Shown piece by piece: positions 38,622 through 64,000 of a stretch of DNA of 64,000 nt (positions are counted from its first letter, which is position 1; every line of letters starts with the position of its first letter). A model generated the notes under the pieces. It saw nothing but the letters and a program-made list of their open reading frames with translations, made no database searches and was not told the DNA's origin. The translations under genes and the position numbers were made by a program. Source of the stretch: Scilla litardierei (taxonomy: Eukaryota > Streptophyta > Magnoliopsida > Asparagales > Asparagaceae); NCBI GenBank assembly GCA_030789695.1, contig CM061142.1, positions 568,221,281-568,285,280 on the forward strand, written 5' to 3'.

Positions 38622-41600
38622 TGTAACGGTCGGTACTCGCTATTCGTCATACGGCTGTGCGTATAGCAATTTCGAGTACCTGATTGGTTTTGTGCTTGGT
38701 ATGTGAGTCGCGTCGTTGAGTTGATAGGGCCATAGCACCTTGGTTGCATCCTTAGCAAGCCACCCCCGACGTGTGCACAACTTGGGATTACCGCCACTTT
38801 TGGACCCCGTATCCTATGTACGCTTTTCGTGCACGTAGTCTTGTTCGTGCACGTATTTATTTTAGATCTTGTCTGTATCCGAACCCTATAGTGTGATATG
38901 CCGTTGTGACCCTCTCGAAGAATATTAAATTGTGGTGTTAATTGGGAACGTCATTTCACGGGTTGTTCTCCCACGATTTGATCTTATTTGATGAGACGTC
39001 GCGATTTTCACTTTTGTTGCAAGCCCTTTTTACTTTTAATTTCGTTTCTCGACGTCGAAATTGTGATCCGTCTTCTCTGTCTTCTTTCTCTCGTCGCCCC
39101 GGCCACCCCAGTATTTATTTCATGATTTTTGGGCTTCGTTTGACCTACTTTCACTTTTTGGCCAACCTATTATACATTTAACCCTAAGTTTTAGTTGGTT
39201 ATTATCCCCTAATATTCATATCACAATAATTTAGATCAGAATACTTGACTCAGCTCATTTTTCCCTCATGGGCCGCACACCAACATGAGAGAGAGTGTGT
39301 GTGGGTTTGAGTTTTATAATAATTGTTAATAACAACTCCTCTATCAAAACAATTCAATAAACCCTACCTATACCTAGCCCTGGCCCATACCCACGACTTG
39401 CAGCCCTCACCTATTCTTAAAACAATCTAGGGTTACTCATGTGAGCCCCTCTTCATTATTTTATAGCTATTGTTTTTAAAACCCTATTCTATTTCTCCCA
39501 ACAACTCTAGGAGCCGCCGCCCTTGGCTTTTTCCACACGAGAGCAAGTCACGGCCTGCTCTTCTCCATCTTTGCATGCGAGCCTGGTGGATTTTGTCGCC
39601 ATCACGTCGCAGCTGCGCCATCCCCTCTTCATTTCGACCAACGTTGCTGTTTCTTCTTCCCTCTCCGAACGCGAGATGCTCCGACCTACCCTCCACCGTG
39701 ATAGCCGCCTGTCCCTTCGACCTCATCCCACGGCAACGCCACACGAGAAGCCCCCTTCATCACCCCCTCATCTTCGCCCGTTCTCCCCGGCGGCGAGCTC
39801 CGCCGTGGGCGGCACAACACTTCTCCGAGCGCCGTCTTCAACAGTAGGGTGCTGCTCTTCGCGACGACCGCCGCAGGAATCTCGGTGGCCTCTCTTTGTC
39901 GGCGACCCCTCGTCGCTCCGACGACCTCATCCCCCTCGAAACCAAGCCGAGCACCGCCCTATCCTCTTCAGCACAGTCAGCCCGCAACCCCGACCGCCTG
40001 AACCCTCTCCAGTCATCCTCCGCCCTTTGCTCGCAGTCGTTCACTCTCTCTGGTGACGTTATGCATGCCAACGCCCCGAAGTCGCCAACACCGCCGCATC
40101 CGGTCATGCCGTCGCCGCTTCATCTGTAAAACACGTGGAGAGGTGGATACTAAACAAACCACGTAAGCCCTTATTACCAGCATACATGCGAGTCATTTAT
40201 AATATGACATATTAGTTGTTATAGGTTTGATGATGAATATTTATAAACTGGGGTGTAGCAAAACCATATACTAATGTCAAATAAGAAATTTTAGAATAAC
40301 TACATCTTTTACCTTCAGTATTTTAAAACATTGCTGCATGAGGAGTAATCACATGCTTCATTATCATGTGGAATCTTCTATTATTTTCCTAAGCAGTAAG
40401 TTAACCTAGTTAACAACTTAGTTATTTAATAAAATGATGTTAGTGTGCTAGTGGGCATTAATATTGATGTTAGCCTAATTACTCGTAGGTTTAATAACTT
40501 GTGTACGCGACTTCTAACTAATGATAGTCTAGGTTGTTATGATAGTAACGTTGTATATTTCTCGTATTAGCAACTTAAACCAGTGGCATGTTAGTAACTC
40601 AACGATCTGGTGAACCCTCGTCACAAGATAGAAAACCTAATAAAATTGGATCATTAGATGGTTTTAGGATTGCCTAATAATTCTGGTCCGCCGTAACGTA
40701 CTTATTGAACCCGTGTTTTAACAGCAGAGAACCGTTTGCCCCGTACCGTTCGTGATACCAGAATCCAACCCCTGACGTCGCTACCAGATGTCAGAGTAGC
40801 TTTCGTGTCGTGTTGAGGTAAGTTTCGCACCGTAGGAACCCACACCCGCATGTTAATAAGATAAAAATTGTAATTTTATTGTGTTGGTTAACTCACCAAT
40901 TGAAGATAATAATATGGGACTGTAGGTTGGGCGATGGTTTGAACACATAGGAAGTAACTGGACTCATCGATCTGAGACTTGCAGCACATCTCTTTCAGGC
41001 AAGTGAAACTTGCCCGTTGCTTGTTTAGGCCATGCTTTAGGCCACTTCTGTACCGTAGCGTAAAAGGGACTAGGCAGTGAAATGATAGCTGCCTAGATGC
41101 CTATTTGATCTAGTTTGACAACGAAACTAAATCCGTCACCTCATTCGATCTAGCTTGACAACGAAGCTAGATCCAACCCCTTTTACCTGTTTTGTTCATG
41201 CTGCCATGTCATCCACGCATTTGTAACTGCCATGTTTAAATTCCTTAACTGTACGCATTTAAATTACAGCTTGCCATGTCATGACATCCATGTCTGATTG
41301 TTGCATTCGTAGCACACGCTACTATACTTATACTTGTTGAGTCTAGGTGCACCCCTATGCCATATTGAAAAACACTTCCTGGCTCGTGATCCAGAAGAGA
41401 GCAATCATGTTCGTGGGTAAAGCCCTGGCTCGATACACTCGGAGGGGTAGGGTTGAGCGACCACTCAGCGTAGAAGTGTGCCTGTACAGCCACTTCAGCT
41501 GTAAGGCGTGAACTCTGTGCACGACATGAAAACGTGACTTGTGATTGTTAGTAGTTTGCTACTCTTGCCATGCCATGCTAGTTGTCCTCTTGTACTCGTT

Positions 41601-42206
41601 ATTGTACTTTACTTTACCTGTAGCACTCATACTTTAACTGCCATGTCATTGCATCATGCTAGAACTGCTAGGTTTCTTTACTTTTACTTTTAGTTTCCTT
41701 GCACAAGTCTCTTGTAGACTTTCTGACATGTGCCCCTTGCTCTTTTGGGTGTCACATGTTAGACCCTGAGCCAGAGACCATTGCTGAGGACGTGGTGTTT
41801 GCTGACGCTGAGCCTGAGCCATGTTTGTCAAGGAGGAGTTTGTGGACACCGGTGACCAGTCATAGTGACCTTGCTGAGTTTTCCTTTTGTTTTAGGATTT
41901 TTGTTAGTTGTCGGTGCGTGACACCTTTACTTTGTACGTTGTACTTTTGTTGGCCATGCTTGGGCCTTTAGACTCTTTCTCTTTCCAGCCTGGTGGCTTT
42001 TCTGTGATGTTGGAACTTATTTTATGGATATTCCGAGATTGCTTTTGGTCTCATTTCCTTATTTATTATCTTGTTTCGTATCGCATTTGCAAGGACCTGC
42101 CATTTGAAGTTTATTGACGCTTATCAGTCTTGCAGCTTCACAGCTTCAAGTCTGAGCGGACCTACTCACGCCTCGCCTCCATATTTTTGGGAAGCAGGAC
42201 GTGACA
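38622..42206 (+). repeat. 5' LTR of the non-coding element
   Basis: It is 3,585 bp long. The block 40160-40780 is almost base-identical to 51150-51765 in the 3' LTR. The leader hairpins are at 40998-41014, 41107-41133 and 41147-41173, and the start-codon hairpin at 41724-41761. The micro-ORF from 41756 is frameshifted by one base after about 22 codons. Confidence 0.9.
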
Positions 42207-44093
42207 TGTTTTGTTGGTGGCCCATGCAGGTCCGTCTTGCAACTGTGAATTATCGGAACAACGATAATAACTATGGAATGTCCATTAAATAAATTGCAAC
42301 ATCCGATTCATAAGCCTTGAGCCTAGTTCTAATCGTTTTTCTATGTCACTAGGTGGTAGGAAGACTTAGTTAGACGTCGGTGCTTGCTAGTTAGAGGTCC
42401 CTGATTGTTAGTTAGACTCCATGCTAGAAATTGATTTAATCGTCTTAGGAGTTACCTTAGTGGTTCTTGCCTAACTCTGACCATATTAGACTTCTAGAAT
42501 TCCGTTAGTCGTTCGCTTGGATTCATCTACTTCGGGCCAAGCTGAACGCTGTTCATTACAGTCTAGGCCCTTAGAAAGTCCTAGCGCTAAGTTTCCTAAT
42601 CTTTAGTTGGTCGACCGTAGGAGTTTCCTGTAGATTTTCCTGGGTTATATCCTAGGCGTGTTTACGTTTCGATCATGCGACATATTCCTTGCACCCGATT
42701 CACGAGACCGCCTCATGACGATTGTCGCTAATTTTAGAATCTCTTCGTTACAAATCTTGAATCTTCCGAAAATATTTTCTATTCTCCCCATTCGCTAAGT
42801 TTTAACTCGTTCGAAATTTTTAATATATATATATATATATATTTAGACTTCATACTCTTTTGTTGACTCGAATTCATTTCTTAATTTCGAGACTTTTGTC
42901 GAGATCTTGATTACCATTTTATAATATTTTTCTGGCCTATACTTTTCATACCTATATAAATACCTTATCCCTTTTCATACACTAATTTTATTCTGAACCG
43001 TACTTCGATTTTCCTAATTCGATTTATAATTCTTCTTACTTATGCTATTAAAACTTATTCGAATAACTCATCGTGCTTACCTTTATTATACTTTTCTAAA
43101 GTTACTTGGGACTTTAGCATTCAGCGTGTCGATTTTATACTCATCATTTTCCTACTTCTAATTTTTTTTGTAAAATACTATCTCTATTTAATTTTTATCA
43201 CCAATTGCAAATAATTCATCTCCATACTCAGTAATCTGCGTCTAACTCTTATGTCGTGATTTAACTTTCATGTTACCCTTCTACATTTTATAATGATATT
43301 ATTATATTTTATTTTATAACTTACATTTTAATATATCCTTATTTCGTATTCTATATTCTTCGTCCCTACTTGATTACTCTGAATTATATTTTTGGTCCAT
43401 CCAACCAAGCTTTCTCCCTTATCTGTGGCCTCATCTGAACCCGTTTATCCCGTTCTTATTTCATTTTAATTTCGTTTCCGGTTTTCATCACTATTGTTTG
43501 GTTATCACATTAGTGCTGACCGTTGCCAACGTTAACCTTATTAACGTATGGTGGGCCCATTAGTATAGATTGTGATGTCGTTGTAGTGCATTTAATTACA
43601 TGGTATCTATGAAGTTGGATGTGTGTTAGTATTTATAAGTATGGGTATGGATAGATATACCACTTTAGGAATGTCTGTATATATATTGGAAATTGTATTG
43701 GAGTATAGACTAGTAGTGTATGTAGTTGAAGATACTTGTGAAAGCTTGATATGAATATATATTAGTAAGTCAGGTGAATGTTAGGTGTAATGATAATAGG
43801 TGTACTTATAATTAAGTGAGTAGACCTATTATATGACATAAATGTTAGTAAGTGTGTGCTTGTATGTAAATATGTAGTGTGCTTAGACGTAAGTAGTTAT
43901 GTATTTGATGCATGAGTATATATGTGATATATGTATGGTAGTAGGATTATTATTTTGATTGATATCGCTTGCTCTTACGGGATGTTGTGTGCATGTATAC
44001 CATCAGGTATACACAATTATTGCATACCTTAACTATGTATGTAAGTAGATGTGTTGGTATACTAATTATAGGTAGGAGGATATGGTGTGAATA
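42207..44093 (+). other. internal region of the non-coding element, left part
   Basis: No gene is seen. TGGTGGCCCATGCAGGT starts 8 bp after the LTR and is shared base for base with the element at 57914, so it is probably the primer site or a packaging signal. The rest is AT-rich, with (TA)n near 42822-42842. Confidence 0.6.
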
Positions 44094-44339
44094 TTTTTTT
44101 TTTTTTGACGAATGAAAGATAGTCTATATTAATCTCGAAATATTTACATGGCCCAAAACAAGTAATCAATGTTGATAATAATAAGTGGGGGGAGAGGACA
44201 CAAGCGTCGTCACCCTCAACAGATTAGAATCAGACATTTATACAAGTAGGCCCATTACAGCAAAATGCAATACAAAAGACAAAGAAAACATGCTAATAAA
44301 TCTAAGCTAAGCTAAAACCACTCAAAAAAAAGTAGGAAG

Positions 44340-47300
44340 TCATCCAGATAGCAGACCCCAATTAGCAAAAGGTGTAGCGTCCATGATCTCTTCAGTATCC
44401 AACCCGCATAGAGCAATCTTAACATCCGATTCAATTTCCTCAAATAATGCCGTTTTAGAAGTTGCCTTTCCTTCGAAGATACGTTTATTTCGCTGTTTCC
44501 AAATGTGCCAAACCATTGAAGACACTACTGTTTTGGCCAAAACACTTTCCGGACTCTTCTTCTTATATCTGGAAAGCATCAAATCACACACTGCTGAAAT
44601 AGAGGTCGGAGCCATACCAGAGCAACCCAGCTTGAGCAAACCTCTAGTTAATATGTAGTTTGTGAATTCGCATTGAAAGTAGAGGTGGGATGTACTCTCC
44701 ACAATTTTTTTGTCACACAGGACACAACTACTATCAACCCCAATACCCAAATGCCGTAACCTGTCATATGTAGGCAACCTGCTTTGCAGAACCCGGAGCA
44801 ATGCCAAGGAGAACTTCGGTACATTGTGCTTATACTAAACAGACTCAAAGTAGGGGAACAAAGCTCCTGCCATTCGAGTGCCTTCCCAGGCCGCACGCAA
44901 CGAGAAATCCCGCCCAGCAATCCAATTCCAGCCATCTTGACCCTCACACAGGATGACATTGAGAAAGGGATCACCAATTCCTTGTATATCCGGAACATTA
45001 GCCCACCCACTCGACGTCCAGAAATCCCCAACATACTTCATTTCTGTTCCAGGTTCAGGCTCTTGGATAAGATAGAGGGGTCCCCTAGGGTGCCAGTTAT
45101 CGTACCAAAACAAAGTAGACTTCCCATCCTTTATTGACCGTTTAATAAGCTGTTGCGATATAGGGCGGCACTTTAGAATGAACTTCCAGGACCCCGAGTT
45201 AGTAGGAGTTGGTTTTACTGAGAAAAACCCTTTTTCCACCGCCTTATAATGACTTCTCATATATTGGCTCCAGACTCCCTTCTTAGAGAGCACTCTCCAA
45301 GTCAATCGAACCCCAGAAGCAACATTAAGGTCCGAAAGAAGCCTCAGCCCCACACCCCCCTCCTTCTTAGGGGTGCACATGTCTTTCCAAGCCCAGCAAG
45401 ACATCTTCCCCCAAATGAATTTCCTACAAGCAGAGTTAATAGCTCTAATAACAGAAGGAGGTAAACAGTAAGCCTGCATCCAGAAAGCAACCATACCATA
45501 TATGACAGAGCGAACCAATTCAATTTTCCCAGAGATAGACAGAAGAGTGGAAGACCACCCAAGAAGCCTCTTCTTACATTTATCAACAAGCCGAGAGAAC
45601 AATGAGGCCTTGGGATAGATTGAAGATAGGGGGAGCCCCAGATAAGTAGTAAAAGAAGAAACCATTTTGATGGCTAAAATCTGGCATAAACTCTGCGCAT
45701 TACGAACCCCTTTACTGAATATAGCAGAGCTCTTATCCCAATTAATTTGCAAACCAGAAAGTCGGAAGAAACTGTCTAGAAGATTCTTAAGACCGTGCAA
45801 TGAATGAGAATTAGCTCGGCAGAATACCAGAAGGTCATCGGCAAATAATAAGTGAGAAATAGAACCTGTTCGCCTCATTGGATGTATAGCCCGTGTGGAT
45901 TCAGAAATAGCCATAAGAAGAGAGAAGGCTTCCATGACAAGCACAAACAAGTAAGGTGAAAGGGGGTCACCCTGGCGCAACCCTCTGTTAGAACCAAAAT
46001 ACCCTTCAGGCGAACCATCAACCAGAACGGAGAAAACTGGAGTAGATATACATTGAAATATCCAGTTGATGAAAGTGTGTCTAAAACCCATCTGATGAAG
46101 TAAGAAAATAATGAACGACCTATTGACACAATCAAAAGCCTTGCGCAGATCAAGCTTAATACAAGTTCTGGACCCCATCTGGTTGCTAAAATCACGAATT
46201 TGTTCATGAGCAAGCAGAGAGCTATCTGCCAGCAACCTATCTTTTAGAAAAGCAGCCTGATTTGGGGATATAAGATCAGAGATAACTTGTTTCAGTCTGT
46301 TACAAAGAACCTTGCTGATAATTTTATAGAGAACATTGCAGCAAGCAATTGGCCTATAATCCCCCAGGCCCGATGCTCTAGCATTCTTTGGCACCAGAGT
46401 CAAAAAAGAATGATTAACAGATTTTGGCATGATACCTGTTTTAAAGAAATGCGAGATTCCAGCAATAACGTCATCCCCTACAATGTCCCAATTATGCTGG
46501 AAAAACATGGAGTTAAACCCATCAGGCCCTGGAGCTTTGTCCTTACCAATCTGGAAAGTGGCACATCTGATTTCAGCAGGGGTAACAGGAAGATCTAACC
46601 AGAGTGCCGCAGCATCAGTAAGTTTCCTTTTAGGAATTACATTGGGGAAAACATCCCAATAATCAATTTGGTTGTATAAATTTTGGTAGTATAGCGGGGC
46701 CTCTTTGCGAAGAGAATCAATATCAGAGAACATATTTCCCTCAGACGATATGAGATGACGCATATTATTGTAACAATGCCGGGCTTTCATCATAGTGTAA
46801 AAAAATTTGGAATTCTGATCCCCAAGAGTTAGCCAATTTTGCCTACTCTTTTGCCTCAAATCCTCTTCTTCGATTTTCATAGCATGACCCAGCTCTTTGG
46901 TTGCCATAATTTCCTGTCTTTGAAGCTCAGGATCCCAAATCAATTTTAGATTAGATTGGATGCGATAAAGCTTTGAGCGGCAAGAATGAACAGACAGCTC
47001 TTTTACCTTCGAAGGCGCCCATTCCTTTAAGAAGTATTTCATCGTTCTCATTTTATTATGAAGTCTACTCAGGTCGGAAATAGTATGGTTCCCACACCAA
47101 TTATTTATAATCATGTCTTTAAAGCCTTGGAGAGAAATCCATGAATTAAAGAATTTGAACGGTTTGGGTTTAGAGATGACCTTAGAGATCAGGAGAACAA
47201 GCATTGCAGCATGATCACTTGTAGCAGCTGGAAGATACTCGTAGTAGGAATCCGTCATTTGATTTAGCCAAGTAGTGTTGCATAGGACACGGTCAAGCCT

Positions 47301-47891
47301 AGCAGAAATACGCAAACCTCCAACCCGTTTATTACTCCAGCTTAAACTACAACCCGTACTTTTCAGATCGAGCAGTTGACAATTTCCAATGCAAGAATTA
47401 AAATCATCCAATGCCGCCACATCTACCATCCTACCTCCAATCTTCTCATTGGCATTCCTGACACAGTTAAAATCCCCTCCTACTAACCAAGGCACATGGT
47501 TGAATAATTTTGAATCCTCACGAAGACTCTTCCAGAGGCCGAGTCTAGCTGGGGCAAGGTTGAACCCATAAATAGCCGTTAGGCCCATGACAAAACCTGC
47601 AGAATTTTTGAAGAAGACCGATAAATGCTGATCGGAAGCATTAATAGGTGAGAAAGACCAAGTGTCTTTGTTGTAGTAAATTACAATACGTCCACCCTTG
47701 TGCAAAACTCTGTTATCAATACACTTCCAATCAGTTCCGAAGCACTGATTTAGACGGGCCGAATTTCTAGATTCAACCTTTGTTTCAAGCAAACAGACAA
47801 TGGAAGGATTTTATTTACGTACAGTGCTCATCAAATCTGAACGTCTAACGGAATTATTTAGACCCCTTGTATTCCAAAAGAAAACAGACAT
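44340..47891 (-). pseudogene. LINE ORF2: endonuclease, reverse transcriptase, zinc finger
   Basis: From ATG 47891 (MSVFFWNTRGLNNSVRR) to the stop at 44340, 1,183 codons, in one frame with only two internal stops (TAA at 47811-47813 and TAG at 44835-44837). The first ~230 residues are an APE-type endonuclease (VGGDFNCVRNANEKIGG and SDHAAML). The reverse transcriptase is in the middle, with PNQAAFLKDRL, GLRQGDPLSPYLF and catalytic FADD. The C-terminal zf-RVT domain has CVLCDKK and a later HLYFQC. ORF2 nicks target DNA and primes reverse transcription there. Two stops in otherwise good frame indicate a fairly young but dead copy. Confidence 0.93.
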
Positions 47892-47898
47892 CAATAAA

Positions 47899-48288
47899 TT
47901 ACTGAGGGTTGGGATTGGTACCGGCAGACTGAGCTACCCTACTACTGCGACGCACAACGGTAGGTACCTGGATCCGAGATTTGATCAACTCAAGGTGCAG
48001 TTTTTCCCACTCTGGGTTCGGCACAGTTGGGCTTTCTGGGCAATCTGGAAGTTTAAGAGCAGGCAGAGATTGGCTTGAAGAGGAAACCTCCGGCATTTTT
48101 GAACTTGTGACCTTATGAGTAGAACTATCCGGTAGAAGTGAACCCTGCTTACAGCAAAGAATATTAACAGTTTGTGCTAGCCGAATGACCCCTACCCATA
48201 AACTCCTTGGAGCCTTCATGGGCATTTTTTGGCTCACTGCCTCCCCACTTTTGACTATAGAAGCAGACATAGAGCTACATTCACCCAC
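47899..48288 (-). pseudogene. LINE ORF1, C-terminal part
   Basis: An open frame of 129 codons whose stop lies 7 bp before the ORF2 ATG. It is Ser/Pro-rich and basic near the end. The zinc-knuckle part expected upstream is missing because the copy is truncated at about 48325. ORF1 binds RNA in LINE particles. Confidence 0.6.
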
Positions 48289-48321
48289 ATCGAATATAGA
48301 TGGATTATTTACGTCCTGGAG

Positions 48322-48325
<4 letters not shown>

Positions 48326-48368
<43 letters not shown>
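48326..48368. repeat. (TA)n microsatellite
   Basis: About 21 TA dinucleotides at the junction of the LINE and the host element. It may have grown from the insertion site. Confidence 0.95.
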
Positions 48369-48370
<2 letters not shown>

Positions 48371-49587
48371 CATGTGCGAGACTATATGATGGATGCATGT
48401 ATTAGGGAGTGTATTATAATTATACGTGTGCTGAGGTCCGTAATGTTATTATGGTATATAAAGTGATTGAACTATGCGGTGTTACCTGACTAAATATTAA
48501 GTGTGATTGACATTATGGTATGTATATGGTATATTGGTAGGTGTGTATACATTGGAGTGGTATTGGTATAGGTATAGATACCGTGTTACGTATATAGAGT
48601 ATTATGATATGTGTCTTGAGTCTCACTCAAGCTTGAGTGGGTATACTCTAAGTATATTGTTACATATGTCTGTGGTTGCGTGTAGTACCATGAATATAGC
48701 GATGGATGATGTATGTATAGTGATAGGATTGTTCGTACCTGGTTGTGTTACGCATATGATTGTGGGTCGCTATACCAGTATATAGGTATAGGTTTTGGTC
48801 TTGTGGTATAATTATTTACTAAGGACTTGTCTGTGTGAACGTATGTGTGCTAGCTAAACAAGGTGTGTAGATGTGCTGGATATATAAGTGGTATGATTGG
48901 TATGTATGTATGAAATGTTAGCGTGTGTGGGTGTGCACCATGCACGGGTAAATATGTGTTTAGTTAGAGGTATTTGTAATTATGGTACATGTGATAAGTC
49001 TTGAATATAGTTATAGGACTATGTGATGTGAATATGGTGTAGTATTTGCGTGCATTTGAATGACTATATATTAGTGGAATTCTAGTAATGATGAATGTAT
49101 ATTAGATATAGTAAACTTGATTTAATAATGGTATGGTGTGATTACATGTGTTGATTTGTTTGGAATTGGATGTACACTAGGAGATATAGGGAGTAGTGTA
49201 TCATTATTGTTTGTTCATAGGTAGTTATCTGAACGTGGAGTATTACGATGGTAATTGCTGGTGTGAATTATTTAATTGGTTGTGAGTATCTGAACTATTG
49301 TTTTATGCTAGGTAAGTAGTAGTTATATAAGGGATGTATATATATATATGATTGAAATACGTGTATGCATTTGACTGACTATGATAGGTATAAGTGCATG
49401 ATGTGCGTGAATATATATATATATACATGTTAGTAGTGTTAATGTTTGACTACCTAGTGCATATATGAGCACTTGTAATGACTATACCTGGGTTAAATTA
49501 TGATGTGATATGATTGGTGTAGTTGTAATAGAGCGACTACATATGTTAGAAAGTCCGAGGACAGACTTTATCCTAAGGTGGGTAGGA
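48369..49587 (+). other. internal region of the non-coding element, right part
   Basis: Rich in GTATGTATAT-like text and without a coding frame. It ends with the purine/GT tract AAGGTGGGTAGGA (49575-49587) directly before the 3' LTR. The minus-strand element has AAGGTGGGTAAGA at the same place (54222-54234), so this is the family's polypurine tract. Confidence 0.7.
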
Positions 49588-52500
49588 TGTAACGGCCGGT
49601 ACTCGCTATTCGTCATATGGCTATGCGTATAGGAATTTCGAGTACCTGATTGGTTTTGTGCTTGGTATGTGAGTCGTGTCGTTGAGTTGATAGGGCCGTA
49701 GCACCTTGGTTGCATCCTTAGCAAGCCACCCCCGACGTGTGCACAACTTGGGATTACCGCCACTTTTGGACCCCGTATCCTATGTACGCTTTTTGTGCAC
49801 GTAGTCTTGTTCGTGCACGTATTTATTTTAGATCTTGTCTGTATTCGAACCCTATAGTGTGATATGCCATTGTGACCCTCTCGAAGAAGATTAAATTATG
49901 GTGTTAATTGGGAACATCATTTCACGGGTCGTTCTCCCATGATTTGATCTTATTTGATGAGACGTCGCGATTTTCACTTTTGTCGCGAGCCCTTTTTATT
50001 TTTAATTTTGTTTCTCGACGTCGAAATTGTGATCTGTCTTCTCTGTCTTCTTTCTCTCGTCGCCCCGGCCGCCCCAGTATTTATTTCATGATTTTTGGGC
50101 TTCGTTTGACCCACTTTCACTTTTTGGCCAACCTATTATACATTTAACCCTAAGTTTCAGTTGGTTATTATCCCCTAATATTCCTATAACAATAATTTAC
50201 ATCAGAATACTTGACTCAGCTCATTTTTCTCTTGTGGGATGCACACCAGCATGAGAAAGAGTGTGTGTGGGTTTGAGTTTTATAATAATTGTTAATAACA
50301 ACTCCTCTATCAAAACAATTCAATAAACCCAACGTATACCTAGCCCTAGCCCATACCCACGACTTGCAGCCCTCACATATTCTTAAAACAATCTAGGGTT
50401 ACTCACGTGAGCCCCTCTTCATTATTTTATAGCTATTGTTTTTAATACCCTATTCTATTTCTCCCAACAACTCCAGGAGCCGCCGCCCTTGGCTTTTTCC
50501 AGACGAGAGCAAGTCACGGCCAGCTCTTCTCCATCTTCGCAAGCGAGCCTGGTGGATTCTCTCGCCATCACATTGCAGCTGCACCATCCCCTCTTCATTT
50601 CGACCAACGCAGCTATTTCTTCTCCCCTCTCCGAACGCGAGATGCTCCGACCTACCCTCCACCGTGATAGCCGCCTGTCCCTTCGACCTCATCCCGCGGC
50701 AACACCACACGAGAAGCCCCCTTCATCACCCCCTCATCTCCGCCCGTTCTCCCTGTCGCCGAGCGTCGCCGAGAGTCGCCGAGCTCCACCGTGGGCGGCA
50801 CAACACTTCTCCAAGCGCCGTCTTCAACAGTAGGGTGCTGCTCTTCGCGACGACCGCCGCAGGAATCTCGGTGGCCTCTCTTTGTCGGCGACCCCTCGTC
50901 GCTCCGACGACCTCATCCCCCTCGAAACCAAGCCGAGCACCGCCCTATCCTCTTCAGCACAGTCAGCCCGTAACCCCGACCGCCTGAACCCTCTCCAGTC
51001 ATCCTCCGCCCTTTGCTCGCAGTCGTTCACTCTCTCTGGTGACGTTATGCATGCCAACGCCCCGAAGTCGCCAACACCGCCGCATCCGGTCATGCCGTCG
51101 CCGCTTCATCTGCAAAACGCGTGGAGAGGTGGATACTAAACAAACCACGTAAGCCCTTATTACCAGCATGCATGCGAGTCATTTATAATATGACATATTA
51201 GTTGTTATAGGTTTGATGATGAATATTTATAAACTGGGGTGTAGCAAAACCATATACTAATGTCAAATAAGAAATTTTAGAATAACTACATCTTTTACCT
51301 TCAGTATTTTAAAACATTGCTGCATGAGGAGTAATCACATGCTTCATTATCATGTGGAATCTTCTATTATTTTCCTAAGCAGTAAGTTAACCTAGTTAAC
51401 AACTTAGTTATTTAATAAAATGATGTTAGTGTGCTAGTGGGCATTAATATTGATGTTAGCCTAATTACTCGTAGGTTTAATAACTTGTGTACGCGACTTC
51501 TAACTAATGATAGTCTAGGTTGTTATGATAGTAACGTTGTATATTTCTCGTATTAGCAACTTAAACCAGTGGCATGTTAGTAACTCAACGATCTGGTGAA
51601 CCCTCGTCACAAGATAGAAAACCTAATAAAATTGGATCATTAGATGGTTTTAGGATTGCCTAATAATTCTGGTCCGTCGTAACGTACTTATTGAACCCGT
51701 GTTTTAACAGCAGAGAACCGTTTGCCCCGTACCGTTCGTGATGCCAGAATCCAACCCCTGACGTCGCTACCCGATGTCAGAGTAGTTTTCGCGTCGTGTT
51801 GAGGTAAGTTTCGCACCGTAGGAACCCACACCCGCATGTTAATAAGATAAAAATTGTAATTTTATTGTGTTGGTTAACTCACCAATTGAAGATAATAATA
51901 TGGGACTGTAGGTTGGGCGATGGTTTGAACACATAGGAAGTAACTGGACTCATCGATCTGAGACTTGCAGCACATCTCTTTCAGGCAAGTGAAACTTGCC
52001 CGTTGCTTGTTTAGGCCATGCTTTAGGCCACTTCTTTATCGTAGCGTAAAAGAGACTAGGCAGTGAAATGATAGCTGCCTAGACGCCTATTCGATCTAGT
52101 TTGACAACGAAACTAGATCCGTCACCTCATTCAATCTAGCTTGACAACGAAGCTAGATCCAACCCCTTTTACCTGTTTTGTTCATGCTGCCATGTCATCC
52201 ATGCATTTGTAACTGCCATGTTTAAATTCCTTAACTGTATGCATTTAAATTACAGCTTGCCATGTCATGCCATCCATGTCTGATTGTTGCATTCGTAGCA
52301 CACGCTACTATACTTGTACTTGCTTGTTGAGGCTAGGTGCACCCCTATGCCATATTGAAAAACACTTCCTGGCTCGTGATCCAGAAGCGAGCAATCATGT
52401 TCGGGGGTAAAGCCCTGGCTCGATACATGTGGAGGGGTATGGTTGAGCGACCACTCAGCGTAGAAGTGTGCCCGTACAGCCACTTCAGCTGTAAGGAGTG

Positions 52501-53194
52501 AACTCTGTGCACGACATTAAAATGTGACTTGTGATTGTTAGTAGTTTGCTACTCTTGCCATGCCATGCTAGTTGTCCTCTTGTACTCGTTATTGTACTTT
52601 ACTTTACCTGTTGCACTCATACTTTAACTGCCATGTCATTGCATCATCCTAGAACTGCTAGGTTGCTTTACTTTTACTTTCAGTTTCCTTGCACAAGTCT
52701 CTTGTAGACTTGCTGACATGTGCCCCTTGCTCTTTTGGGTGTCACATGTTAGACCTGAGCCAGAGACCGTTGCTGAGGACGTGGTGTTTGCTGACGCTGG
52801 GCCTGAGCCATGTTTGTCAAGGAGGAGTTTGTGGACACCGGTGACCAGTCTTAGTGACCTTGCTGAGTTTTCCTTTTTTTTAGGATTTCTGTTAGTTGTC
52901 GGTGCGTGACACCTTTACTTTGTACATTGTACTTTTGTTGGCCATGCTTGGGCCTTTAGACTCTTTCTCTTTCCAGCCTGGTGGCTTTTCTGTGATGTTG
53001 GAACTTATTTTATGGATATTCTGAGATTGCTTTTGGTCTCATTTCCTTATTTATTATCTTGTTTCGTATCGCATTTGCAAGGACCTGCCATTTGAAGTTT
53101 ATTGACGCTTATCAGTCTTGCAGCTTCACAGCTTCAAGTCTGATCGGACCTACTCACGCCTCGCCTCCATATTTTTGGGAAGCGGGGCGTGACA
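49588..53194 (+). repeat. 3' LTR of the non-coding element
   Basis: It is 3,607 bp, the partner of 38622-42206. A small insertion near 50760-50785 (repeated CGCCGAG text) is the most visible length difference. The hairpins are at 51984-52000, 52093-52119, 52133-52159 and 52714-52751. The micro-ORF from 52746 is frameshifted early by one missing C. Confidence 0.9.
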
Positions 53195-54221
53195 TGGAAG
53201 GCTGGGAAAGGCAGTGGAGCATGGTGGCATGTTTGTCGACGTTGCGGTGGTCTAGGCAGGCATCGGGGCTAGGTAGGCAGCATCCACGACGGTGGACATG
53301 GCTCAGGTGATAGTGGGAAGAGTCGTTGGGGAGATGAAAGGGAGAGGGAGGAGGGAGGTCGGAGCTTGGGTTGCGGCGATGGAGGGAGGAAGGTGGTGGC
53401 TGCGTGAAGGAGGGTGAGGATGGGGAGAGAGAAGGTTGGCGATAGGAGGAGATTTCCGATGGATTATAGGGGAGAAAAGAGAGGGATAGACCATGGGTTA
53501 GCAACTTAGGGTTGGTTGTCGAGTTTAGTTTGGTAGGGGATGGAGATATAAGAAGTTGTGGGTTAGGTTGTTTTGATTCATTTTGATTGTGAATTCGGGA
53601 AAAGAGGAGAGATATCATGCAAAAATCTTGTAAAGATATAATAGGATCATAACCTCCATGATTTAAATAGATTAATTAGTTGTTAGAAATATATTTGGTT
53701 AAAATTTGATTTTAGAGAATCAATCTTGTTAAGATTTGATAGGTTAAAAATCAATTTGGTTAATACATTTTGATTTATTAGATATGATTTAATTAGGAGA
53801 TTAATCTTAGCCAATATATTAGGTTATTGGTTTAGATATGATTAGGAAAAATCAATATGGTTTAAATTAAGATTTATTAATGTTAGATCTAGGAGGATCA
53901 ATTTGGTTAGAATAGATTAGGAGAATCAATTGGTTAAAATATTTGGATTATGATAAATTATTCGATTAAGATATTTTGATTAGGGATATCAATTCAGTTA
54001 AGATAATCGAATTATTACGATTTCACCCCTGCAATCAACGTCATTCCAAAAATTATAAGAAGATACCAACGCAATCATGAATTCGTGAGGATTACGAATA
54101 CTGAGTTTGATCACGCGTTCGAGCCATGGAAAATAATAATAATAATCATAAGACAAATATTCAATTAAATTAACTCATAGAAATACGTACGAAATACGAA
54201 CGACAGAAACATGTTGTTACA
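53195..54221 (-). mobile_element. Tekay-type 3' LTR, minus strand, second segment
   Basis: This is the rest of the LTR that starts at 36634. Read on the minus strand it begins TGTAACAACATG at 54221. AT-rich and purine-rich, no supported gene; the Pro/Ser-rich frame on the minus strand between 53618 and 53200 is LTR leader text. Bases 53195-53199 are the target duplication of the nested element. Confidence 0.8.
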
Positions 54222-54632: not shown

Positions 54633-56830
54633 TGTAACGGCCGGTATTTTTAGCCGAGCTTTAGTTCGTATGTACCGATATTTTTCGACTCTGCTTCTCC
54701 GTTTTTTTACCGTATCGCCATAATTAACTAAAAACTTAATTACCTTAGATTAATTATTTTTATTTTTAACTAATTACTTCTGTAATTTAATAATTACACT
54801 CTTTATAACTTAATTAATTAATTAACTGATTCTCTTCATTCTCAAACACGTTTAAATTCTAGAGGAGAAGTTTAGCACGTATTCTTTCCCCTCATTAGTC
54901 AGCGACATCATTTAAAACCATCTTCATCGTTAACCTAATCAAATTAAATTTGCGTTGAAAAATTGGAAAGCTGTCTCCTGCTAACTCTTTTCTTAAGGCG
55001 ACATCTTCTCTGCAAACCCACCCTGCAAATCTTTTCATCAGACAAACCCATCCCTGCAAACAAAAATCCTTCAGCAAATATTTCCCGAATCTTGATTGCC
55101 ATCATCTTCCATAATCGTTCCCAAATCCATCATCATCCATAACCCAAATTTCCCTTAAACAAACCCATTCCCGATTCGAACAAAAACACCAAATACAAGG
55201 ATAAATTCGAAAACCCATTTCAGATCTAAAATCTGAAAACACCAAATCCAAAACCCAAAAAACTCAACAACAAATCTAATAGGAAGAATTTCAGATTCAA
55301 ATTCAGAAATCAACAAACCCTACAACTACTTCCCTTCATCTTCTTCCTCCCCTCTCCTCAAGGCCGGCCCCTCCTCCTCTCACCTGCGCGTGCCGCCGGA
55401 GCAGCTGGCCGCCGCCGGCCAAGAGTCTGAGCCGCCGCCCGCCTGAAGCGTCGTCACCGCCTGCCGGAGCCGCCGTTCGCCGCCAGATCCCCTCCCCGCG
55501 TGCATAGTGAGCTCATTCTTCCCCCTTTTTGTTTTGATTGCTGCCATGAAAAGAAATCAAAAAAAAAGAAAAGAAACAAAGAACAGAAATGAGAAACTGA
55601 GAATGGGAAAGAGAGTGAGAAAGGGTGACAGGGAGGATAGGAAATGTTAATTTAATAGATAAAGGAGATGGCAGCCTTTTGTTATAATAAGAGAGAAAGT
55701 TAGTGTGTGTGTGTGTGTTTATTTAATAATTGTATAGGGGGCCTGAGAGAGAGCCTAGCCTTACAAATGTTAGAGCAAGTGACATCCATATTAAAAAAGA
55801 AATGGGAGAGAGACAGTAGGTAATATGGGAATTTAATAATGTGAGAGATTTTAACATGTTTCTCTTACCCCCTTTAGTCAAAGTTAGGTGAGTATATTAA
55901 ACACCAGGATTAAGACAATTCAGACATGTAATTAGAGCAAGTTAGTTATTAATGTTAATTAGTGTTATTTAAAATTTAAATGTTAATGCTTATTTCAGCT
56001 TGTTGTTAAATTATAATAATATTAGTATAATGCCATTGAATAAAATAAAGTGTACCCTGTTTATATAACTTGATATAACCTCCACCATAGCCAGTGAACC
56101 CCATAAAATTAGATGAACCCAATTTGAGGGTTATATTCATGGTGTGTTGAGTAATATACGAGTGTAAGATAATAATAAGTAAGATAATAATCCAAGTGAA
56201 CTGGTAGGGCCGTTCCAAGATTAAGTTTTAGTATCCATCATTTAGGACCCCTTAATAGTTATTCCACCTACTGGTAGATAGAATACTATATTAGTTCTAT
56301 CTACCTAAGAAAGTTAACTAACTTAAACTGTATAATTTTATCATCCCTACCAGTAGGTTAATAGAATTATTAAAGTAATTTTATCTAACTACCAAGTTCT
56401 AATAGACCTATCAATGGCATATCCCAACCATCCCTAAATACAGGGTACATCAAACCTTTTTTTGAATTTAGCAATATAACGAAAAGAACACCTGTTACAC
56501 TATGAATATGTTAATTATAATAAATGTTATACTTTTACTCATTATAATAAATGTTATTATTTAAATGACGCAGATTCGTCGCGAACTTTCCTACCGTTAC
56601 TCGGACAACCTAAACTGTCCCAGTGAGGCAAGCGTGCAGTTATTTTATGATTTTGTGCTATCTGTTGTTGTGCACTGAATTGCTGACACAAACACACTTT
56701 TTTTAGAAATGCTAGACTTAAACTCGTGTGCGTGTGTATGGACCCCAAATAATCAAAATGAACACACTTTGTGAATGGTAATGTTTCTGGACATGTATGG
56801 TTAATTTTTGAACTGTTGATACTTATAGAA

Positions 56831-56990
56831 TGTTAAATGCCGTTGGCTCTTGTAGTTAAATGCCATTGGCTACCGATGTTACATGCCGTTGGCTACCGAT
56901 GTTACATGTCGTTGGCTACTGATGTTACCTGCCGTTGGCTACCAGTTGCCGTTGGCTATCAGATGTTACTGCCGTTGGCTATTAGTTGAC
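56831..56990. repeat. TGCCGTTGGCTACC minisatellite
   Basis: About eight copies of a 15-26 bp unit containing TGCCGTTGGCTAYC, often followed by GATGTTACA. Copy length varies because the second half is missing in some units. It is absent from the other LTRs at this place. Confidence 0.85.
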
Positions 56991-57487
56991 TAATCTCGTC
57001 GGTCACATGTGACTATGTCACATGCGACTAGTCTAGACTCGTGTTTCAGTATATGACGGATTCGCATCCTAGCACGTGATCCAGGAAGTACACGTGGGTG
57101 GGGTTGGTTCCCAGGCACTAGCTGGTAGTAAACAGATCGCCTTCGGGGGCACTTGAAGGTGTATTTATTTACTATTCGTCTAACGGCGGGAATCTTATTC
57201 ACGAACTTGCACACACAGTTAAATAATTGAAAAAGAAAGTTAATTACAGACTAATGTTACATTGCTCAACTGCCATGTTAATTTTTACAACTGAAATTCC
57301 ATGCTAATGTAACTTGTTGCTTTAACTACCATGCTAGTGTAACTTTTCATAATTGTTTTAACTGCTTCAGTTCATTGAAATACATGCTAGTGTAAATTCT
57401 TTTAACTGCTGTAAAACTGCCGTATATATAACTTGTTATATATATATCCTGCCTTGGGTCATCTGACATCTACTTGCAGACCCTTGC

Positions 57488-57520
57488 TGACATACATTCA
57501 TGTTGTTTGAATGTATGTCA
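57488..57520 (+). promoter_or_regulatory. conserved LTR hairpin, perfect 13-bp stem
   Basis: TGACATACATTCA and TGAATGTATGTCA are perfect reverse complements around a 7-nt loop (57501-57507). The micro-ORF ATG is at 57515 in the 3' arm. It is preceded by CTACTTGCAG, a good splice-acceptor-like site. The stem differs in sequence from the version at 28355 but holds the same position relative to the ATG. Confidence 0.7.
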
Positions 57521-57619
57521 GGTTACGAGACAGGTTATCTGGAGGACGAGTTGCTGGATCAGAGTGATCCAATTGATCAGGATTCTGCTGATCCTGAAGT
57601 CCACTCTACCGTGGTCTAG
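57515..57619 (+). CDS. acidic 34-codon micro-ORF in LTR, diverged version
   Basis: ATG to TAG, beginning MSGYETGYLEDELLD and ending STVV; rich in Asp and Glu, like the 35-codon frames elsewhere, but with little residue identity. Shared features are length, acidity, position about 290 bp before the LTR end, and the hairpin that holds the ATG. This argues for selection on the arrangement more than on the exact peptide. Confidence 0.45.
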   Translation: MSGYETGYLEDELLDQSDPIDQDSADPEVHSTVV

Positions 57620-57913
57620 TTGCTGAATTATCACCGCTGCAGTTATTTATTTTCACCGCTGTGATTTGTAGGGTGTGTACCCACTTTATCTGTATCGCTA
57701 TCATTGTAGGCCATGCTTGGGGCCCTTTTATTATTGTATACTATATCTGGATGTTGGCTTTAATACTTCTATTGTTCTGAGTTGCATGCAAGTTCCTGCG
57801 AAAGGTGTTTTCACAGACGCTTATTGGGTTCGAGCTTAACCGCTCCAACCTAAGCGGGCCCGCTCGCGTCCTCGCCCCAAGTATAATGGGAAGCGGGGCG
57901 TGACAGGTTTTTG

Positions 57914-57930
57914 TGGTGGCCCATGCAGGT
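57914..57930 (+). other. possible primer binding site
   Basis: TGGTGGCCCATGCAGGT starts 9 bp after the LTR and is identical to the sequence 8 bp after the LTR at 42206. It starts TGG, as a primer site must, but is not one of the usual plant primer sites I know. Confidence 0.45.
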
Positions 57931-58028
57931 CTTGCATTAGCAAAACTTCAGTACAATGGAAATACTAACAATGGCCAAAAACGTCTAGATTTATCTTGTA
58001 CACAACTTAACCAAGTTCATTTCTCAGC

Positions 58029-59170
58029 ATGGCAGGAGGACACCACACCAGAAATGGAAATGGGACCGATAATGCAGCTAACGGAAGTGCTGATATTAAT
58101 GTAGTCCTCGGAGTTATCAGGGGAATGCTGGAAGTCCAGCAACAGCTGATTCAGCAAGGACAGCAACTTGCTCAGAATGCACCACCGCCACCCCCCTCGA
58201 GCTGAACCAGGAGTCAGACAATTTCATGAATTGCAGCCCAAGAGCTTCTCTGGAAGAGAGAGGCTGCTAGGAGCTGATGAATGGGTCCAAGAGATCGATG
58301 ATAAGCTGAGTGCTGCTCGTATCCCACAGGCTGGATGGGTTGACGTAGCAAAACTACAGCTGACCCACAATGCCAGGAGCTGGTGGCAACTGGAAGAGAA
58401 ATGTCTGGTCAGACCGATCTCTTGGGGCATGTTTAGGGAAAGGTTTGATGCTAAATACTTTCCCAAGGCAGCCAAGAGAGAACTTCAGTAGCGTTTCGCT
58501 AATCTGGTCCCAGGAAATATGACCGTGGATGAGTATGAGGCTGAGTTTGCTATGCTTAGCCGTTTTGCACCTCATATGGTTAAAGACCCTGAGGATTGTG
58601 CGTTTCAGTTTCACAAGGGTCTGAATCGCCAGGTCCAAGCCTCGATGACCTCGGCGAGACCGACGACACTTCAGGACGTTCTGGATTATGCACGTGAGTA
58701 TGAGCTTGTAGAGAAACTCCCCGAGGGACCTTCAACTGGAGGAGGCAAGTGTCCCATGGAGCCGCCTAGGATGGTGCCTAGAGGAAACTTCCGACCTCCG
58801 CAAACTACACCGTTCAAGAGGCCATCTACTTCTGCCGATCGATCGCATCTGACTTGCTACTTCTGTGGCAGGACTGGACATCAGAAGAAAGATTGCAGGA
58901 GGATGTTGAACCAGTGTCTGATTTGCGGATCACCTGCACACGCTGTGAGAGACTGCGTTTATGACAAGAACCGTCGACCACCTACTGGAGTACTTGCACC
59001 TGTTTACCGTGCAGTGCCTGCACCTGTTCAGCGAGGAGCACCCGGACCTGCTCAGCGTGGACCACCTCTGATCCCTCAGGATCGAGCTTATCAGTATGTC
59101 CATCAACCAAAGCGCCAGGCGTTCACGATGACAGCTGCAAAATCTGAGGCCGAGGATGACGTGATCACAG
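58029..59170 (+). pseudogene. gag of the Tekay-type element
   Basis: ATG 58029 (MAGGHHTRNGNG). The first 58 codons end in TGA after a Pro run, and a one-base change in the C-tract at about 58190 shifts the frame. The gag core follows (ELQPKSFSGRERLLGADEW, ARSWWQLEE, RERFDAKYFP), then an in-frame TAG at 58489-58491. The C-terminal part has one zinc knuckle, CYFCGRTGHQKKDC, and a second Cys-rich stretch (CLICGSPAHAVRDC). Gag forms the particle and the knuckles bind RNA. It runs straight into the putative intron at 59171. Confidence 0.88.
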
Positions 59171-62023: not shown

Positions 62024-62369
62024 TGTCACACCCCGCTTCCCTAAAATGGAGGCGAGACGTGAAAAGGTCCGCACGAGAGTGGAGCTGTGAAGCCCCAACC
62101 CGATAAGCGTCAATAAAACATAAGCAGGTCCCTGTAACCACAAACGGAACAATAATAATAACACAAGGAGAGACAGAAATAAAATCTCATATCTCATAAT
62201 TTGTCCAACATGAAAATTAAGTTCAACATCCAGAAAAGCCATCAGGCTAAAAGAAAGAGTCTAAAGGCCCAGAACAAGGCCAACAAAAGGAACAACGTAA
62301 CAAAGTATAGGTGCTACGCACCGACAACAAAACAGCAGTCTAAACAAAAGGGAAAGCTCAACGAAGACA

Positions 62370-62477
62370 CTAGGACTGGTCCCTAGTGTCCACGTACGCC
62401 TCGCCAAACACAGGCTCGGGCTCGGCGTCAGCAAACACCTCGTCCTCTACAATGTACTCAGGCTCAGGATCTAACAT
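62370..62477 (-). CDS. acidic 35-codon micro-ORF in LTR
   Basis: Minus-strand ATG at 62477 to TAG at 62370, beginning MLDPEPEYIVEDEVF and ending VDTRDQS. Intact, 35 codons, the same length and ends as the frames at 266-373 and 28387-28494. Its ATG lies in the 3' arm of the hairpin at 62472-62510. Confidence 0.45.
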   Translation of the reverse strand: MLDPEPEYIVEDEVFADAEPEPVFGEAYVDTRDQS

Positions 62478-62510
62478 GTGTCACCCAAAAGAGTAAAGGG
62501 GCACATGTCA
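62472..62510 (-). promoter_or_regulatory. conserved LTR hairpin containing a start codon
   Basis: On the minus strand, TGACATGTG and CACATGTTA pair, with CCC/GGG extension; it is the same version as at 233 and 28355. Confidence 0.6.
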
Positions 62511-62732
62511 GCAAGTCTAAAAGACTTGGGCAAGGAAACTGAAAAGGAAGGCAACTATTAACCTAGCAGTTATAGTATGCATGACATGGCAGTTATGGTA
62601 TGAGTGCACAAGCAAGACATGGTGAAACAATAAGTACAAGAGAACAATTATTGGGACAAGTCAAAAGTAGCCAAGCTACTAACAATCTCAAGCTTTTCAC
62701 TAGTCACGTTTCAAGTTGTTTGTAGATGTTTA

Positions 62733-63337
62733 TGTTGGATATGGAAGACGTTTGTACACCCTTGTGGGGGATGTACGAGGGAATACGGACCTCGAACGTC
62801 GCGCACACGAAGTCATGTGCAAAGGGAATCTGTTCCCTTGCGGAGAGGATCTCTGTATGAGTGGGAAAGTCGCATTATATATGCATAAATGCATGCGACA
62901 TATGGCTAATAAAGGGGGAATATCTTAAGCTTATGTTGTACCATGCATATGGTACAACTTAAGCTTATAATGTGCCATGCATCATGGTACACCTTAATTA
63001 AGTTGTTCCTAAGGAACAACTTACCCTAAAATAACTACCTTGGGGGCTATAAATAAGACCCAAGGGTAGCCATTTTCCTTACACCATTTGCATGAAATTC
63101 ATGCATGCATCTTCTTCATAGCGAAGCTCTGCAGAAATATTTCCTCTCCCTCCATCCAAGTTCTTAATCTAAAATAGAGATTTAGATTGTGGATTAGTAG
63201 CCTTACTCCGTTCGTGAGAAGACTCGATCCGTCGTGGCGAATCCGAAGGCAAAGTTCCGAGACTACCGCTCCGCATACGCTAGCGTAAGTCTCCACTTTA
63301 ATTATCGATCCTAACTCTGTTTTGGCAGGATCCTTCA
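62733..63337 (+). repeat. LTR with initiator-Met primer site
   Basis: It ends CCTTCA at 63337, followed by one base and the primer site TGGTATCAGAGCC. The left end is placed at TGTTGGAT (62733) because it mirrors the right end; it is less certain. A TATA box (CTATAAATA, 63047-63055) is preceded by three inverted repeats. The LTR is about 605 bp. A copia-type element is likeliest, but no coding region is visible before the window ends. Confidence 0.7.
62940..63026 (+). promoter_or_regulatory. three consecutive hairpins before the TATA box
   Basis: GTTGTACCAT/ATGGTACAAC with a GCAT loop, then TGTGCCATG/CATGGTACA with one mismatch, then AAGTTGTTCC/GGAACAACTT with a TAA loop, flanked by repeated TTAAGCTTA. 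Confidence 0.7.
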
Positions 63338-63338
63338 T

Positions 63339-63351
63339 TGGTATCAGAGCC
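63339..63351 (+). other. primer binding site, tRNA-iMet type
   Basis: TGGTATCAGAGCC, the common plant LTR-retrotransposon primer site complementary to initiator methionine tRNA. Confidence 0.92.
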
Positions 63352-63399
63352 ATATGGGTTCGCCCCGGTCAAACCACCGCCCCGTCGAAACTACGAACG

Positions 63400-63560
63400 A
63401 GTCGTTGTCTTTTTCACGAATGGGTCTCCTACTATTACGGATATAGTAGGAACGCTTCGTGACGGAGAGAACACAGCGGTTGTTCTTTTCACGTTAGGGT
63501 CTCCTATCATTATGGATATGGTAGGAACTCTCCGTGACGGGAAGAACCGACCGTTCACGT
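63400..63560 (+). repeat. duplicated ~72-bp leader unit with hairpin
   Basis: Two diverged tandem copies in the 5' leader. Each holds a hairpin: CCTACTAT/ATAGTAGG in the first and CCTATCAT/ATGGTAGG (one G-U pair) in the second. A shorter exact 20-bp duplication follows at about 63612-63652. Confidence 0.7.
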
Positions 63561-63660
63561 AGTAAGTTATTCATTTTTGGCACACGGCCATTAGGAAATA
63601 ACTAAATTCTCGACGAACGGGTGCTTCATCGACGAACGGGTGCTTCATCGAGGAAGATGA

Positions 63661-64000
63661 TGGAAGTTATTTCCATCGGGTAAGAGGAAAATTTGGTGCA
63701 TGTGCACCATGGCCAAAATGGGCTATGAAGGCCATGCACCCCCTCTCCCCATGCGGAGGGGGTTGGCTACGGCCAATAACCACCGGCGACCACCCCATCA
63801 AGGGGGAGGAATGAGTGCGGCAACCCCGTTTAAAGGGGGTGGCTGGCCATGGCCAAAGGGGCCATGGCCGGCCAACGCCGAATGGCCTTGGCCATGACCG
63901 GCCATGGCCAAGCCATGGCCGGCCATGGCCAGGCCGGCAGTGGCCGGCCAAGGGCCAGGCCGGCAGTGGCCGGCCTTGGCAGAGCCTTGCCGGCCAGGCC
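63661..64000. repeat. GC-rich palindromic tract, GGCCATGGCC-type
   Basis: Dense overlapping GGCCATGGCC, GGCCGGCC and CCAGGCCGGCAGTGGCCGG units, the last seen twice. It runs off the window. The frames on both strands follow from the base composition and are not genes. Confidence 0.85.

Follow-up and report, generated by a model that had tools for sequence, protein, structure and literature searches.

The LTRs of a group of plant retrotransposons in Scilla litardierei carry an RNA hairpin that is conserved and covarying, together with an acidic micro-ORF under coding and charge constraint, both constraints being relaxed in the one family that mostly lacks the AUG. Our best reading, to which we give a probability of about 0.5, is that the hairpin would be a cis-acting site and that the ORF would encode a separate, probably trans-acting hyperacidic microprotein. 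Coordinates below refer to the window, the whole 64-kb stretch of DNA that was analysed, which is a nest of plant LTR retrotransposons.

Hairpin-bearing elements in the window

Seven LTR copies (c1 to c7) carry the hairpin. Five of them belong to family A, namely c1 (plus strand, end at 717), c2 (plus, end at 28840), the pair c3 and c4 (plus, about 38621-42208 and 49587-53196, 96.4% identical) and c7 (minus, end at 62024); c5 (plus, about 54635-57905) is a family B copy and c6 (minus, end at 36634) a family C copy. Families A, B and C have little alignable DNA in common beyond the last few hundred LTR bases. Within the element bounded by c3 and c4 (plus, interior 42209-49586), no gag, protease (PR) or reverse transcriptase (RT) of the element was detected; a 985-codon ORF with a match to RVT_1 only lies on the opposite strand (44838-47792, minus), which is probably a nested non-LTR element. 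LTR c7 seems to be interrupted by another element (62695-64000, minus), and the reverse complement of TGGTATCAGAGCC is found near 63350.

The class of these elements was read from L038, a related copy elsewhere in the genome, in which pieces of Retrotrans_gag, RVP_2, RVT_1, RT_RNaseH, Integrase_H2C2, rve (a match below its cut-off) and SH3_Tf2-1 follow each other, giving the gag-PR-RT-RNaseH-IN order that is a trait of Ty3/gypsy chromoviruses of the Tekay clade. At the integrase end, SH3_Tf2-1 matched at 9.9e-28 and no chromodomain was listed in the piece scanned. We treat the hairpin-bearing elements as plant chromovirus-like LTR retrotransposons, the name Tekay being putative.

Several further features of these LTRs were recorded. 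A C-rich and GC-rich stretch with a sharp 3' edge was measured in c3 (39500-40130), and similar stretches were seen by eye in c5 (about 55350-55510) and c6 (about 37800-38620, minus); all three look like a plant 5' UTR or first exon. The ends of family A LTRs fold into a hairpin (679-715, 28800-28838 and 62026-62062, minus), the 3' part of which, GGGAAGCGGGGCGTGACA, stands at all seven LTR ends with at most two mismatches. Short palindromes (CTAGNCAG..., GATCTAGTTT/AAACTAGATC and GATCTAGCTT/AAGCTAGATC) lie at 27724-27827 in c2 and 41070-41176 in c3, where three and two, respectively, passed the scan at homologous positions. Just inside the LTR, GTGGTGGCCCATGCAGGTC or a near-identical sequence occurs in several families (57906-57931, 42207-42232, L098 and L100) at the position where a primer binding site would be; we take it to differ from the usual initiator-methionine primer binding site.

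A covarying hairpin at the same place in all seven LTR copies

A sequence-only reading of the window had placed a hairpin at the same position in seven LTR copies, and all seven were recovered, at a distance of about 420-490 nt from the 3' end of the LTR. In family A, the hairpin lies at 232-272 (c1), 28354-28393 (c2), 41723-41762 (c3, the 5' LTR of the element negative for gag, PR and RT) and 52713-52752 (c4, the 3' LTR of the same element) on the plus strand and at 62471-62511 (c7) on the minus strand, supported in each case by a covariance model and covariation. The family B hairpin (c5, 57487-57521, plus) is supported by RNA folding as well as by both of these, and the family C hairpin (c6, 37038-37082, minus), which has ACG for ATG, by the covariance model. 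The stem comprises about 14 pairs and was present in the lowest-energy structure of each stretch folded (96-126 nt), with z-scores of -1.8 to -4.3. When a covariance model was built from the window copies, all seven were recovered at E <=1.1e-10, and the next best place in the window, with the opposite strand of the same seven places set aside, scored E 0.059. Between the c1-type and c2-type subgroups of family A, the hairpin arms are 94-100% identical, compared to 59-77% in the flanking stretches. An Rfam search of the window gave no match above the gathering score, and a search with the LTR-end pattern returned stretches from viral contigs (2) and prokaryote contigs (23), all of which lacked the hairpin pattern in the 900 nt upstream.

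It had also been claimed that three stem sequences occur with pairing kept, and this held on the seven copies, in which 91% of cells pair. These copies form 4 distinct rows in the covariation test, in which 6 of the 14 pairs change on both sides and the covariation is 0.50 versus 0.25 in shuffles (reached in none of 500), while the measure of further pair types was no higher than in shuffles. When 18 sequences from seven families were compared, pairing held in 92.5% of 252 cells, the score for covariation was 0.40 versus 0.24 in shuffled and at most 0.20 in slid controls, and both-side changes fall in 29 cells versus 9.8 in shuffles. Two of the five measures on this set were not above shuffles, namely the number of pairs with a both-side change (7 versus 6.0; 154 of 500 shuffles) and the number of further pair types (15 versus 17.0; 495 of 500). 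Thus, in an approximation of a covariation-versus-null check that ignores the kinship of the sequences, the stem exceeded both the shuffled and the slid controls. Moreover, stem cells with G-U (13) outnumber those with A/C (4), which fits folding of the sense RNA.

These data bear on two alternatives. In the first, the site would act at the DNA level, as a palindromic protein-binding site or a cruciform promoter site with an incidental ORF. TATA-like DNA just upstream in family B and the other palindromes in these LTRs are in line with it, but the inner stem changes in sequence while pairing persists, G-U cells exceed A/C cells, and the codon signal described below would be left unexplained; we consider it very improbable. 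In the second, hairpin and ORF would have no function and be common by descent alone, the feet of the stem being palindromic by chance. Copies of one family are near identical, so that many copies add little independent evidence, and two of five covariation measures did not exceed shuffles; against this stand the between-family covariation, the synonymous excess and an acidity reached in none of 3000 shuffles in seven representatives, by which this explanation is already disfavoured to the point of being scarcely credible.

The micro-ORF is under coding and charge constraint

Four intact ORFs of 34-35 codons had been reported, and all four were confirmed: 266-373 in c1 and 28387-28494 in c2 (both plus, 35 codons; reading frame, codon test and charge), 57515-57619 in c5 (plus, 34 codons; reading frame, charge and family B copies) and 62477-62370 in c7 (minus, 35 codons; reading frame and codon test). 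The two ORFs of the non-coding element are frameshifted, as had been stated: by reading frame, the region in c3 (41756-41865, plus) carries a +2 shift and that in c4 (52746-52854, plus) the same +2 shift plus a further -1, indicating that the parent element was already broken. Across families, the ORF is 34-38 codons long. It was intact in 8 of 8 family B copies (c5 included), 12 of 12 family E copies and 10 of 12 family F copies; the remaining two are L086, which has GTG for ATG and an open acidic frame, and L095, which is frameshifted.

The ATG in the 3' arm, from which the ORF had been said to start, is present, but it is not the first ATG in family A or in c5. Family A has an earlier ATG in the 5' arm, whose frame runs for 11-13 codons in four of five copies and, from 52718 in c4, for 54 codons without meeting a stop before the stretch read ends; the c5 hairpin has a further in-frame ATG in its loop (57500). 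The AUG context of the micro-ORF is weak, and the length over which the frame stays open says little by itself (P 0.06-0.17 for single copies, five copies tested).

Substitutions showed a synonymous excess between subfamilies among intact copies, with dN/dS values of 0.2-0.5. Comparison of c1 or c7 with c2 showed fewer amino-acid changes than did relocated substitutions (P 0.002-0.004, in either direction); no constraint was seen in the other two sense frames in the pairs tried, and one antisense frame gave a weak signal (P 0.03). Among seven copies of families A and D, with the three stem codons left out, 15 of 21 pairs, which are not independent, had P<0.05; the other six were the three pairs among c1, c7 and L035 (for c1 versus c7, no constraint was seen), L053-L038, c7-L048 and L035-L038. 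Two family E copies compared with L041 gave P 0.01-0.03, and pN/pS within families was 0.49 in B, 0.34 in E and 1.0 in F. Furthermore, the ORFs of c1 and c2 differ by no indel, versus 3-5 events in neighbouring stretches of 66-142 nt.

The strongest constraint signal of the micro-ORF is its acidity. Over 30 codons, all seven representatives (families A, B, D, E and F) have 10-13 D+E and 0 K+R, compared to shuffle means of 4-5 and 3-5, respectively, and the observed D+E was reached in 0 of 3000 shuffles. The peptides align within families alone, and between families charge is kept more than sequence: similarity was not above shuffles for A-B and A-C (P 0.16-0.89) and had P 0.006 for B-C. No homologues of the micropeptide were found among predicted proteins or in Pfam. 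The earlier suggestion of a micropeptide thus gains support; the companion suggestion, that the region may control translation of the LTR transcript, became neither stronger nor weaker.

Occurrence elsewhere in the genome

A blind sample of twenty 10-kb stretches (200 kb) of the same genome, at round coordinates fixed beforehand, contained eight hairpins at E <=5e-4 on the better strand. In six of the eight (L035, L038, L040, L044, L048 and L053), the stem ATG opens an intact acidic ORF; L041 has an acidic ORF with a single in-frame stop, and the ATG frame of L049 is non-acidic (4 D/E, 10 K/R), this copy being frameshifted as judged by eye. Two weaker matches, L042 (E 0.28) and L036 (E 0.86), were left out of the count, and inspection of L042 revealed no such stem or ORF.

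Relatives were also taken from the best hits to each query, a choice that favours well-kept copies: 20 of 40 listed for family C, 12 of 40 each for E and F, and 8 of 40 for B, including c5. The hairpin was present in all 20 family C stretches and all 7 further family B loci, which had been found by DNA similarity and not by the model. Families D, E, F and G were found via the hairpin model and so cannot serve as evidence that the hairpin is universal among families.

Family C keeps the hairpin and mostly lacks the ORF

In c6, ACG stands in place of ATG and breaks a pair, as the sequence-only reading had noted, the 5' arm having A; this is not decay of c6 alone. Among the 20 fetched family C relatives, the codon at the start site is ACG in 14 and ATG in 2, and the position of the U of the AUG lies in a G-C pair in 15. 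A G-C pair therefore replaces A-U, so that pairing stays and the AUG is lost. The model found the stem in 20 of 20 at E <=1e-4. The corresponding frame has mostly decayed, the 33 codons containing on average 5.5 D+E, 4.2 K+R and 1.4 stops per copy. In c6, it is open for 31 codons with just 4 D/E. Six family C copies scored for charge had 3-6 D+E and 4-7 K+R, which is the shuffle level; these six had been chosen because their open frames were long, and P was 0.02-0.12 once the lack of stops was taken into account. In L054, the nearest relative of c6, the start codon is ATG, the stem has a G-U pair, and a frame of 31 codons is open and holds 9 D/E and 1 K/R, showing that ORF loss in family C is not complete; L054 may show an earlier state of the family. 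Family C is numerous (3051 first-look candidates, mostly without the ORF).

The hairpin thus does not require the AUG, and the acidic ORF mostly goes with the AUG. The idea of hairpin and ORF as one unit is accordingly weakened, since family C keeps the hairpin mostly without either the AUG or the acidic ORF.

The coding content of the elements was compared with the state of the ORF. Gag and protease, and RT where the stretch is long enough, follow the LTR in A (L035, L038 and L053), B (c5), D (L048), E (L100) and F (L101), and all five of these families keep the ORF. For family E, the ORF and pol were read in different copies (pol in L100); for family F, the L101 stretch begins within the ORF, which is intact in L087, the presumed partner LTR of L101. 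In family C, gag was found in L098 and L099, whereas neither protease nor RT was matched in the remaining 2.2 and 1.6 kb, respectively; at the ATG site, the LTRs presumed to be their partners, L055 and L056, have GCG and ACG. L098 and L099, which share LTRs and gag without detected protease or RT with the gag-only terminal-repeat class (TR-GAG), likely belong to it, as we presume; this likeness concerns the class of family C elements and not the hairpin or the ORF.

These observations suggest that the hairpin is a site needed in cis and that the ORF is dispensable when pol is absent. Evidence linking the ORF to pol comes from two lineages that lack pol, from two family C interiors, and from a single element in each of B, D, E and F. 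The ORF could accordingly yield a trans product or, less simply, be needed in cis just for expressing pol.

Signals around the hairpin and the gag start

A smaller hairpin lies upstream in several copies: CAAGUCU/AGACUUG abutting the c1 hairpin (214-231, plus; by folding, P 0.05), GGGUC/GACCC in c5 (57456-57483, plus; by folding, P 0.13) and GAGGGUC/GACCCUC in c6 (37084-37128, minus; P 0.03). As a universal feature it was rejected: P<=0.05 was obtained in five of twelve representatives (c1, c6, L048, L073 and L063), with weaker values in c2, L053, L049 and c5 (P 0.08-0.13) and chance level in L041, L075 and L040. In c5, a TATA-like cluster (57423-57447, plus) lies 9-33 nt before the smaller hairpin, the only other TATAWAW in this LTR being at 56062. 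From this family B position, the compound element would appear to begin near the cap. No TATA-like cluster was found at the corresponding place in the family A LTRs scanned.

The gag start of c5 (58029-58205, plus) has its AUG right after a pyrimidine tract and CAGC, 410 nt beyond the micro-ORF stop; this gag is broken further downstream. In all six families A-F (read at 57984-58031 of the window, at 131-175 of L098, and in L099, L100, L101, L038 and L048), a pyrimidine-rich stretch and AG precede the gag AUG, directly or after one C. This resembles a 3' splice site, so gag may come from spliced RNA. With a splice-site scoring matrix, the four best acceptors listed for L038, L053 or c5 did not include this site.

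Donor-like AG/GYAAG motifs were found 606-862 nt before the hairpin in six of seven elements scanned. In the window, such motifs, mostly with GC rather than GT, lie upstream of the hairpin in three families, at 40818 and 40999 (c3), 27651 (c2), about 56626 (c5) and 37500 minus (c6); the motif at 40999 is also, by eye, an arm of a small hairpin. If these are donors, both the hairpin and the ORF would be intronic with respect to the gag mRNA, and unspliced RNA would be the template for reading the ORF. In the seven elements inspected, no donor common to all was found in the interval from the ORF to gag.

Such motifs raise the alternative that the hairpin is itself the 3' end of an intron, with CTGAC as the branch point, a pyrimidine loop and a YAG acceptor, so that the ORF would be exonic and its ATG removed. 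CTGAC and YAG do stand at the two feet of the stem, donor-like motifs lie upstream in six of seven elements, the best donor score being 11.1 at 40818, and the YAG ranks second in c5 and sixth in c6 among the acceptors of its own LTR (both by the same matrix). However, the family A acceptor falls outside the top ten of its LTR, the ORF frame joined to the donors at 40818 or near 56626 runs into TGA (by eye) with the start lost, the ORF is relaxed in just the family that mostly lacks the AUG, and covariation of the inner stem has no reason in an intron model. We regard this as improbable.

Rather unlikely, but with more in its favour, is a cis-acting leader uORF of the gag(-pol) mRNA, in which the paired AUG and the acidic nascent chain would set how many ribosomes stop, drop off or restart downstream, such that charge would matter and the peptide itself would not. 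It would account for charge being kept more than sequence between families. In c5, ten AUGs precede gag, and all the ORFs that contain them end before the gag AUG; the segment that begins at the smaller hairpin and runs up to this AUG has an unusually stable predicted fold (z -6.0). On the other hand, family C has gag and mostly no acidic ORF, and the acceptor-like site at the gag AUG may splice out the leader AUGs anyway. The uORF peptide of the pararetroviral shunt is, according to PMC5902531, neither conserved nor essential, unlike the micro-ORF here.

Discussion

The preferred reading is of two separable parts, a cis-acting hairpin and a probably trans-acting microprotein. The hairpin, in what would be the R region, would act in cis on the element's own transcript; we infer both the transcription and a binding partner. 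The ORF would start at the AUG in the 3' stem arm and, if translated, yield a microprotein nearly free of Lys and Arg. As its AUG is paired and in a weak context, we propose that the peptide would be made in small amounts. Its charge invites the guess of a basic partner, such as the Gag nucleocapsid, histones, integrase or another. Parasitic elements retain cis sites and lose products that relatives supply, and the same split here makes the peptide probably a trans-acting accessory of autonomous elements.

Together, the conserved hairpin and acidic ORF suggest an undescribed small gene. A fuller statement, that this is an accessory gene belonging to a very large set of chromovirus-like plant retrotransposons, in which the LTR encodes a Lys/Arg-free hyperacidic microprotein from a hairpin-locked AUG, acting in trans for autonomous elements, with gag-only and non-coding relatives keeping just the hairpin, is offered tentatively, at somewhat less than even odds. 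At this length, gene finders would miss the product. If the blind sample is representative (eight in 200 kb), the 3.7-Gb genome would hold on the order of a hundred thousand hairpins. If true, a major class of plant retrotransposons would have one more gene than its present parts list shows, and its charge-defined microprotein could be examined for a part in the assembly of Gag, in targeting to chromatin or in translation. Family C, in which hairpin and ORF have come apart, is a natural control.

Such an ORF or hairpin was not described in the literature searched, including the portions seen of PMC7730604, PMC3601003, PMC5902531 and PMC9718836, a scope that excluded most subscription journals. 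The leaders of plant pararetroviruses (the shunt of CaMV and RTBV) are alike in that a short ORF lies close to a strong stem and that the leader is long and contains many AUGs ahead of the first large ORF. In that shunt, according to PMC5902531, the uORF ends before the stem and its peptide is not conserved. Here, by contrast, the start codon sits within the conserved stem, most of which lies ahead of it, and the peptide shows constraint on both codons and charge; folding downstream of the ORF is predicted for c5 and c2 only.

Conserved-peptide plant uORFs resemble the micro-ORF in being short, conserved at the codon level and apparently upstream of a main ORF. Like them, it shows synonymous excess, in the 15 of 21 non-independent pairs described above. 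It differs in being LTR-borne and thus present at both element ends, in keeping charge rather than sequence between families, and in being mostly lost in gag-only relatives.

TAR-type hairpins are likewise a conserved stem, here in a presumed R region, with a second, adjoining hairpin in several of our families. TAR contains no start codon, whereas the stem here holds one, its R position being presumed. The sag gene of MMTV is a precedent for a product other than gag-pol that is encoded within an LTR. It is far longer than 34-38 codons and is located in U3, whereas the ORF here has 34-38 codons, lies in the presumed R or U5 and has its AUG in a hairpin.
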